64,000 bases of DNA from an uncultured Candidatus Saccharibacteria bacterium. Lineage in GTDB: Bacteria; Patescibacteriota; Saccharimonadia; Saccharimonadales; Saccharimonadaceae. Within the stretch, counting starts at the first letter, position 1. Each line of letters begins with the position of its first letter. Location: assembly GCA_949480205.1 (NCBI GenBank), contig CASXXK010000001.1, forward strand, positions 1-64,000, written 5' to 3'. Of this stretch, positions 48,898 through 58,865 are shown piece after piece. The position numbers and the translations under genes were made by a program. The notes under the pieces are model-generated. The model made no database searches. It saw only the letters and a list, made by a program, of their open reading frames with translations, and had not been told where the DNA came from.

Positions 48898-49284
48898 ATG
48901 GCAAAAGTTAGGTGCTTTATAAGCTTTGATTATGACAACGACTTAGACTTAAAGAATCTATTAGTAGGGCAATCGAAGAATGATGATTCCCCATTTGAGA
49001 TTTCTGATTGGTCAATTAAAGAAGCGAGTCCGACATGGCAGAAAGAGGCTAGAGACCGGATTAAGAAGTCAGACCAAGTTATTGTTATCTGTGGCCAGCA
49101 TACGGATACTGCTACGGGTGTTGCTAAAGAGCTATCTATCGCTCAGGAAGAAGGCAAAAGTTATTTTTTACTTGCTGGACGTGCAGATGGTAAGAACAAG
49201 AAACCGACCTCAGCAAAAAGTAGCGACAAACTGTACAAATGGACTTGGGATAATCTTAAGAAATTAATCAATGGTGGTAGATAA
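48898..49284 (+). CDS. TIR-like (MTH538/DUF1863, ThsB-like) domain protein
   Basis: KVRCFISFDYDNDLDLKNLL...FEISDWSIKEASPTWQKEARDRIKKSDQVIVICGQHTDTATGVAKELSIAQEEGKSYFLLAGR; upstream TTGACA-17-TATTAT. Confidence 0.75.
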   Translation: MAKVRCFISFDYDNDLDLKNLLVGQSKNDDSPFEISDWSIKEASPTWQKEARDRIKKSDQVIVICGQHTDTATGVAKELSIAQEEGKSYFLLAGRADGKNKKPTSAKSSDKLYKWTWDNLKKLINGGR

Positions 49285-49741
49285 ACTAGACGTTAAAGTT
49301 AAACAGTACGAACTGTACTTGAATGGAATAGAGCAAATCTCTAATCGTCGAGGTAAGGCACTAGGCTCACTGGTCGCATTAAATTCAGCATATTTTACTT
49401 GTGGTGGAATTATTTTACAGTTTACAGAAGGGACTAATCGTGTTGTTTTACTTTGTGGGCTTAGCTTGTTAGGAGTATTGACATCCGCCATATTTTTCTT
49501 CCTCCTAAAATCATATGGGCAACTGAACAGTGCAAAATTTCAAGTTTTACACAAAATAGAAAAACAACTTCCCCTGCAGCCATATACGGAGGAATGGAGT
49601 ATTGTTGGCAATGGTAACGACCGTAGTAGATATCGGCCATTCTCTCACATTGAAAAATGGATACCAGTAATTTTTGGATTAGTTTACTTTGTGGTGCTTG
49701 TAGCGATAGTTTTTAGCCATGTGAGAATTATCATAAATTAA
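49271..49741 (+). CDS. RipA-like membrane protein coupled to the TIR-like gene
   Basis: QYELYLNGIEQISNRRGKALGSLVALNSAYFTCGGIIL resembles RipA-family N-termini; three TM-like segments; overlaps TIR gene by 14 nt. Confidence 0.55.
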   Translation: MVVDKLDVKVKQYELYLNGIEQISNRRGKALGSLVALNSAYFTCGGIILQFTEGTNRVVLLCGLSLLGVLTSAIFFFLLKSYGQLNSAKFQVLHKIEKQLPLQPYTEEWSIVGNGNDRSRYRPFSHIEKWIPVIFGLVYFVVLVAIVFSHVRIIIN

Positions 49742-52395: not shown

Positions 52396-53289
52396 CTAGT
52401 TCGCATTATACCCAAATTTCGGGTTGCGAGTTAGAAGCACTTCCTTCCACCACGACTCCCGATCGAGGATAGTTTTATCGTCCGTTGTAGATTTATAAAT
52501 GTCGAGAATCGAGTAGCGGAAGTTGTTCTTAACATAATCTAAACCTTGTGTTCCAACTAGGGCTTTCAGCTCCCTATTTCCACCATGTCCGTTTTCGGCA
52601 TAACTTTGCCAGCGACCGAGCAGCATCGTGTCGCCATAAGCCGATCCAACATAGCGTTTATTAGTGGCGACGTCGGTAATGAAGTAAACGCCTTTTTGGT
52701 TTTTCAGAGCAGTTTGCCAAGTTTTGAGGCTCAAGACATACTTCAGCTCTGACCAAGACAAGTTTAGATTTTCGTAGCCCGGGAACTCCGTTTCTGCCTC
52801 GTCGTAAGGTTGTTCGAGAATAGTTTTGACCGTTAGTCGAGAAATTGCCTCTTTATCACGCATGACAATGTTCATAGTATTACGATCTGCCCAAGTAATC
52901 ACCAGCTTGCCGATATAGCCTGCCACTTCCGGAAATGCTGATTCGTCCGCCTCGACAAAAACTTTGCTATCGTCGAGAACCTTATAAGCATTAACAAGTA
53001 GCCAGTCCTTGTCGCCGAATGGAATAAAACTGAGCACGTAATCGCCGTTAATATAACGTTTATGACCATTAGGATTATGGGTCTTGACCGATTCACGAAC
53101 GAGATTGGCTTCGCCATGGCTGTACATTTTTAGGAGTTCAAAACGGCGTGGTTTATCGCCAAGCCAAGGCTTGAATTCGTCCAAAGTATTATTCGGGTTA
53201 TAATCCCAGTCGCTATTGAAAACCAACTTCAATTTAGACAACTTTTCTTCTGGTAGTTTTAGCAGGTCGATAAGTTTGATAATGCTCAT
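52396..53289 (-). CDS. GIY-YIG nuclease domain protein
   Basis: KGVYFITDVATNKRYVGSAYGDTMLLGRWQSYAENGHGGNRELKAL...FRYSILDIYKSTTDDKTILDRESWWKEVL. Confidence 0.85.
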   Translation of the reverse strand: MSIIKLIDLLKLPEEKLSKLKLVFNSDWDYNPNNTLDEFKPWLGDKPRRFELLKMYSHGEANLVRESVKTHNPNGHKRYINGDYVLSFIPFGDKDWLLVNAYKVLDDSKVFVEADESAFPEVAGYIGKLVITWADRNTMNIVMRDKEAISRLTVKTILEQPYDEAETEFPGYENLNLSWSELKYVLSLKTWQTALKNQKGVYFITDVATNKRYVGSAYGDTMLLGRWQSYAENGHGGNRELKALVGTQGLDYVKNNFRYSILDIYKSTTDDKTILDRESWWKEVLLTRNPKFGYNAN

Positions 53290-53321
53290 TTTGCTTGCCC
53301 TTTCTCGGTCGCCCTAATAAC

Positions 53322-53467
53322 AAAAATGCGACCATGTACTTAGTCGCTTAAACTTTGACAAACTGGGCTTCAAGAGCTTGATTTGCGTACATAGCCGCAT
53401 TCTTCTCTCGAAGCCAACATTTGAATGTCGGCAGTTCTATCAAAGTTTAAGCAATACTATTGTATCA
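53322..53467 (-). ncRNA. structured leader RNA/ncRNA with attenuator-like 3' end upstream of the GIY-YIG gene
   Basis: -10 TGATACAAT (rc of 53459-53467), 13-bp closing stem GCTTAAACTTTGA/TCAAAGTTTAAGC (53346-53358/53440-53452), inner AACTG/CAGTT, GGCTTC/GAAGCC, TGCG/CGCA and ACAT/ATGT stems, then GCGAC-N10-GTCGC plus T5. Confidence 0.65.
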
Positions 53468-53539
53468 TATTATGCCCTAGATGGGAAGCCGCATTCATAA
53501 CAGGGGTCGGAGTTGACTTTTATAGGGGTAAATGATACA

Positions 53540-54334
53540 ATGAAGAGCATGGCTGATGTGATGACGCGACAAGAAAAAAGTGCTATTGTTATAAAAGCAC
53601 TTCTAGAGGCAGAACAATCTGAGGTGGAACACCCCGAATACGTTATGATGAGTACTGATGAACATTTTCCAAATATTTCTCCAAAGGAGGCACTTATTGT
53701 TTTGGAGCACCTTTCGCGTTTATCGGGTTGTATTAGCCTCGAATATCACTACAGATATCCAAATGAAGATGCATTATATAATGATGTTGACTTGATGAGC
53801 GAAATAGAAGTAGATGCTATTGATTTGCGTGATGTTGCGCCATATCTTAAGGAAGATAGTATTCAGTATAGTTTAGGTATTATTGATTTTAAAATAAAAA
53901 TCGGTGATGATTTCCATAATCAGCTAAAGTATGCAAGCAAGATCGATTTAATCAAGAAGGAATTGCCGAATATAGACGATACAGTTCTTGAGCTTATCGT
54001 AAAAAGCGAAAAGTTATACATAAACATAGTGCAAAAATATAAAAGGTATTTCCTAAGAGATCTCGGAAGGAGTATCTATTTTGCCAGTTTTTTTGACTAT
54101 GCAGAAAAACATCAAAACACACCCTTTAAATTGTCTGATGTTGGCAAGACTACTTATGATATTTATAATCTTTTGCAGAGGACGATGAGAGATCCTCTTA
54201 TTTACAAAGCCTTTTTCAGAATTCAAGGTAAGAACGGGGCAATTATTGCTAATTTTAAACCAACGTATGCCGATTTAATCGCTGCTAAAACGTCGGTAGA
54301 AAAAATCGAGCAACTGGTGCGGGCAGACGCATAA
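53540..54334 (+). CDS. hypothetical protein
   Basis: promoter TTGACT-17-TACAAT upstream; about 264 aa. Confidence 0.55.
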   Translation: MKSMADVMTRQEKSAIVIKALLEAEQSEVEHPEYVMMSTDEHFPNISPKEALIVLEHLSRLSGCISLEYHYRYPNEDALYNDVDLMSEIEVDAIDLRDVAPYLKEDSIQYSLGIIDFKIKIGDDFHNQLKYASKIDLIKKELPNIDDTVLELIVKSEKLYINIVQKYKRYFLRDLGRSIYFASFFDYAEKHQNTPFKLSDVGKTTYDIYNLLQRTMRDPLIYKAFFRIQGKNGAIIANFKPTYADLIAAKTSVEKIEQLVRADA

Positions 54335-56988: not shown

Positions 56989-57092
56989 TTCTTAAAAGAT
57001 TTTCCCTCTAGGCTCTCGGTTGTCAGTAGCCTTGAGCCTAAGGGTATCTTTTTAAGTGATTTTAGGTTATAATTAAAACATAAGGAGTGAAA

Positions 57093-58865
57093 ATGTCAAT
57101 GAAACTGGACACCTCGAAATTAAAATTCGTTATCTACACTCGGAAATCTACAGAAAGTGCGGAAAGGCAAATTGCCTCATTGGGTGACCAACTAGCGGTA
57201 GCGAGAGAAATCGCAAAGCATAATAAATACAAGGTAGTAAAAACCTTTAGCGAATCTGGCTCGGCGCGTAAAGTAAATAATCGTCCGCAATTCAACAAAA
57301 TGCTTAAAATGATTGAGTCGGGCGAAGCAAACGCGATTATTTGCTGGCACACCAACCGCCTAGCCCGTAATCCGCTCGAAAGCGGTATGGTTCAACAACT
57401 ACTGATTGACGGCAAAATTAAACTGATTCATACTCACGATAAAATCTATTACCCAGAAGATAATATGGTGGTTTTCAGCGTTGAAGCTGGCATGAATGCG
57501 GAGTATTCTAAGAAACTTTCAGAAGATGTAAGGCGTGGAGTTTATAGGAGAAATAAGCGAGGCGGCTATAATACAGTCGCTCCACAAGGTTACCTTAATA
57601 GTCATACCGAGGATGGTCAAGCAATTATTATCGAAGACCCAAAGAGATTTCCGCTTATTAAGAAAATGTTTAGCCTTTATTTAACTGGCACATATAGTAT
57701 TCCAGAACTGGCGGATATTGTTAATAATGAATGGGGCTACTTAACTAAGAAACATAAAAAGCGTGGTGGCGTACCACTAAGCACGACCACTATTAACGGT
57801 ATCCTTTCCAACCCATTTTATATGGGAAAGATTAAGGATATGGAAAACCCAGAAATTCTGCATAATGGAGCATGGCGACCCATGATTACCGAAGAAGAAT
57901 ACTGGAGGATTCAAGAGCTAAAGGGTGCTTATGCCGTTAAACATAATTTACGACCTAAGTGTCGTGCGCATGGCAATCGTTACGATCTAAAAGGTCTAAT
58001 TGTTTGCGCCTGTTGCGGTTGTTCTATTATTGGCGAAAAACATATCAGAAAAACACTTAGTGGCGATTCGCATGAACACATCTACTATAAATGTACTAAG
58101 AAAAGCCCACACCGCAAATGTACAATGCGAGGGAGCATCACCGAAGAAGAAGCGACTCGTCAAATCTACGAATTACTTGATAGTTATAGAATTCACCCAA
58201 CATTATATGAATGGGCTAAAAAGGTTATGGAGTCAATTCATAAGAAAGAGATCGAGGAACGTTACAATATCTCTGAAATGCATAATACAGCCTTAGAAAA
58301 ATGTCAGAACAAATTAAGCAAATTATTAGATATGCGCCTTAATCTTGACGATTATGACGAAGAAGATGACGAAATGTATCGGCAAAAAGAAAAGGAGCTG
58401 AAAGACCAAATTAGGCGAATTAAAGAGGCTCACCGAGAAGTTAAAGAACTCAACCGCAACTGGTATGAAATTATTGGTAAAACTTTAGAGATTTTACAAA
58501 GCCCAACTGAAAAATTTGATGCCGCATTAGACGTAGGCGAGAAACGCGCTATATTACAAGCCATTGGACCAAAAGCTACACTAACAGAGCAAGAAGTGTT
58601 ACGTGGCGGTAAATTTAGGACCATAACGCGGAAAATTATAGAGGTAGAACCGTATCCTTGGCTCGAAAAAATCGTAAAAACGTCAAAAAAATTAGCCCCT
58701 GAACTTGCGAAGGGCCATAACGCAATTTTACAGGGGCAAAACAGTCGAAAACAGGCTTTATATTCTGTGTGGTCGGGGCGACAGGACTTGAACCTGCGGC
58801 CTCAGCGTCCCAAACGCTGCGCGCTACCAACTGTGCTACGCCCCGGTATTTGTATTATAGCATAG
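57093..58865 (+). CDS. large serine recombinase
   Basis: KFVIYTRKSTESAERQIASLGDQL; CWHTNRLARNPLESG; FSVEAGMNAEYSKKLSEDVRRG; recombinase domain; CACCGCSIIGEKH...YYKCTKKSPHRKC zinc ribbon; ORF continues antisense through tRNA-Pro. Confidence 0.93.
   Translation: MSMKLDTSKLKFVIYTRKSTESAERQIASLGDQLAVAREIAKHNKYKVVKTFSESGSARKVNNRPQFNKMLKMIESGEANAIICWHTNRLARNPLESGMVQQLLIDGKIKLIHTHDKIYYPEDNMVVFSVEAGMNAEYSKKLSEDVRRGVYRRNKRGGYNTVAPQGYLNSHTEDGQAIIIEDPKRFPLIKKMFSLYLTGTYSIPELADIVNNEWGYLTKKHKKRGGVPLSTTTINGILSNPFYMGKIKDMENPEILHNGAWRPMITEEEYWRIQELKGAYAVKHNLRPKCRAHGNRYDLKGLIVCACCGCSIIGEKHIRKTLSGDSHEHIYYKCTKKSPHRKCTMRGSITEEEATRQIYELLDSYRIHPTLYEWAKKVMESIHKKEIEERYNISEMHNTALEKCQNKLSKLLDMRLNLDDYDEEDDEMYRQKEKELKDQIRRIKEAHREVKELNRNWYEIIGKTLEILQSPTEKFDAALDVGEKRAILQAIGPKATLTEQEVLRGGKFRTITRKIIEVEPYPWLEKIVKTSKKLAPELAKGHNAILQGQNSRKQALYSVWSGRQDLNLRPQRPKRCALPTVLRPGICIIA
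58771..58845 (-). tRNA. tRNA-Pro (TGG)
   Basis: CGGGGCG/CGCCCCG acceptor, CAGCG-TTTGGGA-CGCTG anticodon arm, CCA. Confidence 0.93.

Follow-up and report, generated by a model that had tools for sequence, protein, structure and literature searches.

Transcriptional riboswitches of the fluoride, ZTP and preQ1 classes form a pseudoknot between a loop and the 3' tail which overlaps one arm of an intrinsic terminator, and in the antisense-RNA attenuators of pT181-type plasmids loop-loop contacts choose between termination and read-through. Antitoxin RNAs of type III toxin-antitoxin systems lie directly upstream of a nuclease gene and carry a promoter and a terminator. In the cobalamin riboswitch, the L5-L13 kissing loop docks the expression platform (PMC10907184). 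For the Patescibacteria, a 2024 perspective states that the mechanisms by which cells alternate between an attached and a free state "remain completely unknown" and that inducible control parts are still to be developed (PMC11665869). No element of the kind described below was found in the literature on structured RNAs and riboswitches of Saccharibacteria and Patescibacteria, in a coverage consisting mainly of open-access journal papers.

The DNA analysed here, referred to as the window, is a stretch of 64,000 nucleotides from an uncultured Candidatus Saccharibacteria bacterium which carries, on its minus strand, a structured leader ahead of a gene encoding a GIY-YIG nuclease domain. The leader resembles the fluoride, ZTP and preQ1 riboswitches in its potential loop-to-3' pseudoknot overlapping a terminator arm, but the helix is far longer (13–14 bp) and it is carried by a long hinged-rod stem in which no conserved unpaired ligand core was recognised. 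Its likeness to the pT181-type attenuators lies in loop-loop contacts that would decide between terminator and read-through, except that both partners here belong to one molecule and many paralogues of one genome have distinct, cis-matched loops. With the cobalamin riboswitch (RF00174) it shares the potential of an upstream-domain loop to kiss the loop of a regulatory hairpin (PMC10907184), whereas neither a four-way junction nor a cobalamin core was seen, the downstream genes are unrelated to cobalamin and the long complementarity competes with the terminator; the RF00174 covariance model matched neither the window nor 28 other loci bearing related sequences. Rfam 15 yielded no family match on the minus strand of the window even at E ≤ 10, and the leaders of the 28 other loci were without a match apart from far sub-threshold microRNA models. 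This agrees with the preliminary description of this DNA, in which no known riboswitch class had been recognised.

The elements of the locus, in window coordinates, are the following.

53459..53467, minus strand: extended -10 promoter TGATACAAT, 6 nt before P1
53452-53318, minus strand: strongly folded leader RNA, from a dinucleotide-shuffle fold test
53432..53452, minus strand: 5' strand of P1, 13 bp perfect plus an inner part, from the fold
53416..53429, minus strand: P1a hairpin GACAT-TCAA-ATGTT on the 5' side of the hinge, from the fold and comparison
53405..53415, minus strand: 5' strand of P2, from the fold
53387..53400, minus strand: segment a, ATGCGGCTATGTAC, candidate antiterminator or kissing strand, from its 14-nt pairing with a'
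53384..53399, minus strand: P3 hairpin TGCG-GCTATGTA-CGCA, the rod tip, from the fold
53366..53376, minus strand: 3' strand of P2, continuous with the 3' strand of P1 with 0 unpaired nt between them, from the fold
53346..53365, minus strand: 3' strand of P1, abutting the terminator hairpin, its last GC shared with b, from the fold
53343..53347, minus strand: segment b, GCGAC, 5' arm of the terminator hairpin, from the terminator scan and comparison
53326..53339, minus strand: segment a', GTACATGGTCGCAT, terminator loop and 3' arm, for which a, b and d compete, from comparison
53322..53326, minus strand: U tract of the intrinsic terminator, from the terminator scan
53307..53312, minus strand: segment d, GCGACC, 3' of the U tract and complementary to GGTCGC of a', from the sequence
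53298..53303, minus strand: Shine-Dalgarno-like AAAGGG of the downstream gene, from the sequence
52396..53289, minus strand: downstream gene, 297 aa, with a C-terminal GIY-YIG nuclease domain, PADLOC UzuA (Uzume defence), from domain and PADLOC models

The window leader folds at -60.3 kcal/mol, compared with -39.5 ± 3.8 kcal/mol for 200 dinucleotide shuffles (z -5.46), none of which folded as well, and a terminator scan selected the same site as the one proposed earlier, GCGAC-TAAGTACATG-GTCGC-ATTTTT, so that the earlier reading as a structured leader with a terminator is borne out. All of the elements described previously occur at their positions on the minus strand: the 13-bp perfect closing stem GCTTAAACTTTGA/TCAAAGTTTAAGC of P1, the AACTG/CAGTT and GGCTTC/GAAGCC pairings within the leader and the inner ACAT-TCAA-ATGT element. 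The complementarity noted between the terminator loop and an inner hairpin loop is also present, but it is longer than was described and extends into both stems, with 14 pairs between a (53400-53387) and a' (53339-53326). For the window, predicted energies are -8.4 kcal/mol for the terminator hairpin and -20.7 kcal/mol for a:a'.

Further copies were sought in 394 genomes of the same Saccharibacteria family, whose members are minute parasitic bacteria. The core ATGCGGCTATGTACGCAAAT, with at most two mismatches allowed, matched in 13 of these genomes, against one for the reversed control, and the matches revealed the same leader ahead of different genes. A gapped pattern with free loops then yielded about 36 true copies, from which the covariance model R1 was built, and the pattern and covariance-model searches together gave about 100 copies in 64 of the 394 genomes, mostly one to four per genome. 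Samples covering the phylum (290 genomes) and the order (197 genomes) produced no matches outside this one family, which means that false hits are infrequent and that the element is apparently confined to this lineage. A second leader copy is present in the window's own genome (G000:C6:5721-5858; locus L167, 301-438; E 3.9e-9), where it precedes a 188-aa membrane protein that also lies behind the leader in four other genomes, at L157, L158, L162 and L176.

All 36 copies of the first set fold alike, and across the larger set a near-universal form is seen in which a hinged rod, consisting of P1, a 5' bulge or hairpin and P2-P3, is joined directly to the terminator hairpin. P1 begins with GC and ends with a GC abutting the terminator hairpin, and its conserved positions are this outer GC..GC and AAAC; the median lengths are 17 bp for P1 and 16 bp for P2 plus P3. 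The hinge is strongly asymmetric: its 5' side exceeds its 3' side by at least four nucleotides in 91 of 96 copies, the medians being 12 nt, single-stranded or in a hairpin, and 0 nt, respectively. The multi-branched form described initially is thus seen in the window copy, where P1a occupies the hinge, but it is only one variant, and in many other copies the P1a position is a single-stranded, often U-rich bulge. In a MAFFT alignment of the 36 copies, the covariation score for P1, P2 and a:a' was 0.424, against 0.153 for shuffled alignments (0/500 as high) and at most 0.124 for a slid-partner control, which preserves relatedness. In the same alignment a:a' was 98.9% paired, while the P3 and terminator stems are invariant in this set because the search pattern demanded them. 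The preliminary description had named two outcomes that would refute it, a match to a known Rfam family and a lack of conserved pairing in homologues, and neither of them occurred. The window RNA thus belongs to a family not listed before, whose members probably act as RNA switches. Across the copies, nothing resembling the conserved, unpaired pocket of a ligand-binding site stood out.

The surroundings of the fold are similarly constant. A TATAAT-like -10 hexamer lies 6–8 nt before P1 in 88.5% of the 96 copies (16% in shuffles), such that the transcript is expected to begin at P1; in 94 of 96 copies the terminator stem is succeeded by a U tract; and a Shine-Dalgarno sequence, start codon and ORF of at least 50 aa occur within 60 nt in 77 of 96, the corresponding rates being 8% at randomly chosen positions and 2/96 when the opposite direction is read. 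On these statistics the element is a 5' leader, with transcription probably starting at P1. A free-standing small RNA gene, equipped with a promoter and a terminator and possibly acting in trans on other copies through the exposed loop, would also account for the promoter, the terminator and a predicted product of about 130 nt, but we regard it as very improbable given how regularly a translatable ORF follows, and given that the loops match better in cis than between paralogues of the same genome (see below), a result by which trans pairing between copies was rejected. Still less can be said for a leader-peptide attenuator, in which the AUG of ATGCGGC would open a short regulatory ORF. An ATG is present at this site in 64 copies, and the window has a 28-codon ORF extending beyond the U tract; yet 11 of 77 copies have this frame open through the terminator, against 11 and 12 for the other two frames, and some copies lack the start codon. 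There is, then, neither a conserved short ORF nor conservation of frame, and we rejected this candidate as exceedingly unlikely.

The 297-aa protein encoded behind the leader in the window matches the PADLOC UzuA models (E 1e-48 and 2e-45), and its closest relatives, at L001 and L002, are from uncultured Saccharibacteria. At L001 (93% protein identity), the fold of the leader is kept despite differing P1, P2 and inner hairpin sequences. The leader model had no match at 13 loci of more distant UzuA relatives (L003-L011, L019-L022), several of which are truncated upstream, and neither a UzuA relative nor an exact core motif was found in viral contigs.

The UzuA gene and its leader are situated near a large serine recombinase (window 57087-58865), the 3' end of which overlaps a tRNA-Pro(TGG) on the opposite strand (58770-58845), an arrangement as in an integrated island. 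A divergent gene at 53513-54334, without Pfam or PADLOC match, has a promoter-like site pointing away from the leader; other leader-bearing UzuA copies likewise have a divergent neighbour. At 48898-49741, a ThsB-like TIR protein is followed by an 8xMP family membrane protein, and this pair is possibly a further defence module of the same region. Among Bacteroidota, UzuA relatives at L003, L005 and L006 are preceded by what appear, by eye, to be attC-like structured repeats in the style of integron cassettes.

A scan of 86 proteins encoded downstream of the leader copies revealed a wide variety of functions. Defence and DNA modification are represented by UzuA (6), EcoRI-type methylases (4), N6/N4 DNA methylases (4) and an MmeI-like restriction-modification protein (1), and other classes include T4SS pilins (4), FISUMP surface proteins (2) and oxidoreductases (2). 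Many of the remaining proteins are membrane-bound, secreted or of no assigned function, several of the uncharacterised ones group into distinct families, of which one has ten members, and no common metabolic theme was discerned. The largest group behind the leader comprises uncharacterised acidic proteins with SFEEHM and YKEYxxEKxA motifs (L071, L072, L073, L078, L091, L095, L097, L136, L138 and L145). Given this variety, and the distant UzuA loci at which the model found no leader, the genomic comparison indicates that the leader travels with, or was recruited to, diverse accessory genes. The initial assignment of the RNA to the GIY-YIG gene could not be upheld, since the same leader precedes dozens of unrelated genes and was not matched at the 13 distant UzuA-relative loci; with Uzume anti-phage defence it shares the downstream gene only, as the gene that would be regulated, and it is not itself part of the defence family. 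An RNA partner of the UzuA nuclease, whether the guide of an RNA-guided system or an antitoxin of the type III toxin-antitoxin kind, is suggested by the position directly upstream of a nuclease gene, complete with promoter and terminator. It has next to no probability in our estimation, and was rejected, for an RNA that occurs ahead of unrelated genes, is not tied to one nuclease family and found no model match at those distant loci, even allowing for the several that are truncated upstream.

The pairing of a with a' provides the most informative feature of the family. Over 96 copies it averages 12.43 of 13 pairs in cis, compared with 11.0 for permuted partners (maximum 11.30 in 1000 permutations), and when a is placed by motif instead of by best match, 93 motif-anchored copies give 12.52 of 13 against 11.09 (maximum 11.43 in 2000). 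Co-varying columns include column 10, with U-A in 41, A-U in 19 and G-C in 18 copies, and column 7, with U-A in 43 and C-G in 42. Paralogues of the same genome often have different loops, and their pairing is better in cis (12.56) than in trans (11.37). Covariation is clearest in the loop half, which has 7.80 of 8 pairs in cis and 6.60 with permuted partners. Three later matches, L199, L200 and L214, lie outside the training of both models, and their pairs were read from the printed sequence: in L199 and L200, which represent one element in two genomes, the loop consensus is wholly replaced and the AGCGGCCCUG/CAGGGUCGCU complementarity is kept, and L214 has 14 of 14 pairs. The loop-loop kissing or pseudoknot complementarity noted earlier is hence real, and compensatory changes preserve it in about 100 other copies, far beyond chance.

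Segment a' also pairs with the terminator arm b, 74 of 96 copies having 6/6 pairs and a further 20 having 5/6, and since the a:a' and b:a' helices overlap they are mutually exclusive. A terminator/antiterminator choice had been proposed for the window, with GCGACC at 53307-53312 as a classical antiterminator. Exclusive pairings do exist, but it is chiefly a, on the P3 strand and loop upstream, that competes with the terminator, by pairing with a' over 13–14 bp. The GCGACC further downstream, d, is likewise genuine and frequently conserved, a TGCGRC/GCGACC copy complementary to the end of a' being found at p ≤ 0.05 in 34 of 96 copies (4.8 expected), usually just upstream of the Shine-Dalgarno site. 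Its position 3' of the U tract means that it is transcribed once the polymerase has passed the terminator, and we therefore rejected the classical antiterminator role, while a translational or post-transcriptional role in the read-through mRNA is possible. A different kind of repeat was observed in the start regions of the methyltransferase leaders L153, L160, L187 and L140, which carry P1-like GCUAAACUAUG, GCGAAACUAUG or GCAAAACUAUG. This GGUUGCUAAACUAUG-like copy of the P1 5' strand, seen also in L199/L200, can fold into a hairpin that encloses the Shine-Dalgarno site, which suggests added translational control.

We consider it likely that the element is a cis-acting leader which controls its gene by attenuation, through mutually exclusive b:a' (off) and a:a' (on) pairing decided by a signal. 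The arrangement expected of an attenuator is present, with a hairpin and U tract ahead of the start codon (U tract in 94/96 copies, ORF start in 77/96) and a conserved, exclusive a:a' pairing that is transcribed before the U tract and would act as the antiterminator. Transcription would start at P1, and the hinged rod of P1, hinge and P2-P3 would fold before the polymerase reaches the terminator, leaving a' to face two mutually exclusive partners, a or b. Judging by the topology, pairing with b would close the terminator hairpin and release an RNA of about 130 nt, with the gene off. Alternatively, the rod tip may fold back such that a captures a', starting from loop kissing and extendable to 13–14 bp, whereupon the terminator could not close and read-through into the gene would follow, with the gene on. 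The deciding signal might act on the hinge or the tip and could be a small molecule, a protein or a folding-rate cue. In the read-through RNA, a' also has a potential partner in d, a third copy lying just ahead of the Shine-Dalgarno site, and their pairing may adjust translation.

The median predicted energies, -8.4 kcal/mol for the terminator hairpin and -20.2 kcal/mol for a:a', imply that a wins if the tip reaches a', and whether it does so would be set by the rod and hinge. The P1 and P2 arms are similar in length (17 and 16 bp), but their lengths show no positive correlation across copies (rho -0.18, p 0.08) and thus lend no independent support to the fold-back. The main rival is a terminator stabilised by docking, an off state in which the rod tip docks the terminator loop through 6–7 bp, with P3 and the terminator stem remaining closed, and undocking would lead to read-through. 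We judge it unlikely, if clearly the strongest of the alternatives. It would explain why the loop half covaries most clearly; it is consistent with the short terminator stem (-8.4 kcal/mol) and with divergent copies, for example L170, L182 and L156, in which P3 can still close with changed stems; and it has a precedent in the aptamer loop of the cobalamin riboswitch, which kisses the expression-platform hairpin (PMC10907184). Simple docking does not, however, call for complementarity that reaches through the stem halves of the two hairpins and is largely preserved where the a' stem has changed, and L181 and L194 retain a good a:a' helix without a good terminator stem. The a' stem departs from GTCGC in eight copies, in six of which a matches 5/5, and b is at ≤4 pairs in five of those six; these eight partly related cases form a modest base, and they argue that the long a:a' helix, beyond loop-loop kissing, is under selection. 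Returning to attenuation by exclusive pairing, the few divergent copies with a broken b:a' stem, such as L181 and L194, indicate that the mode of switching need not be identical in all copies.

A broader proposal, which we advance tentatively and would not yet favour, is that the leader belongs to a new class of signal-sensing RNA, either a riboswitch or a protein-sensing leader, and constitutes a portable promoter-plus-switch cassette through which a single shared cue, possibly contact with the host or the state of growth, could govern horizontally acquired genes for defence against phages, modification of DNA, the type IV secretion pilin and surface proteins. Regulation in the Patescibacteria is almost unexplored, and the leader provides a concrete regulatory element for these organisms. 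Its 13–14 bp loop-to-terminator helix on the tip of a hinged rod represents an unusual switch architecture, and the occurrence of such a widespread, clearly covarying RNA switch ahead of defence, secretion and surface genes would make a regulon readable by sequence. If a ligand exists, the leader may also become usable as an inducible control part.
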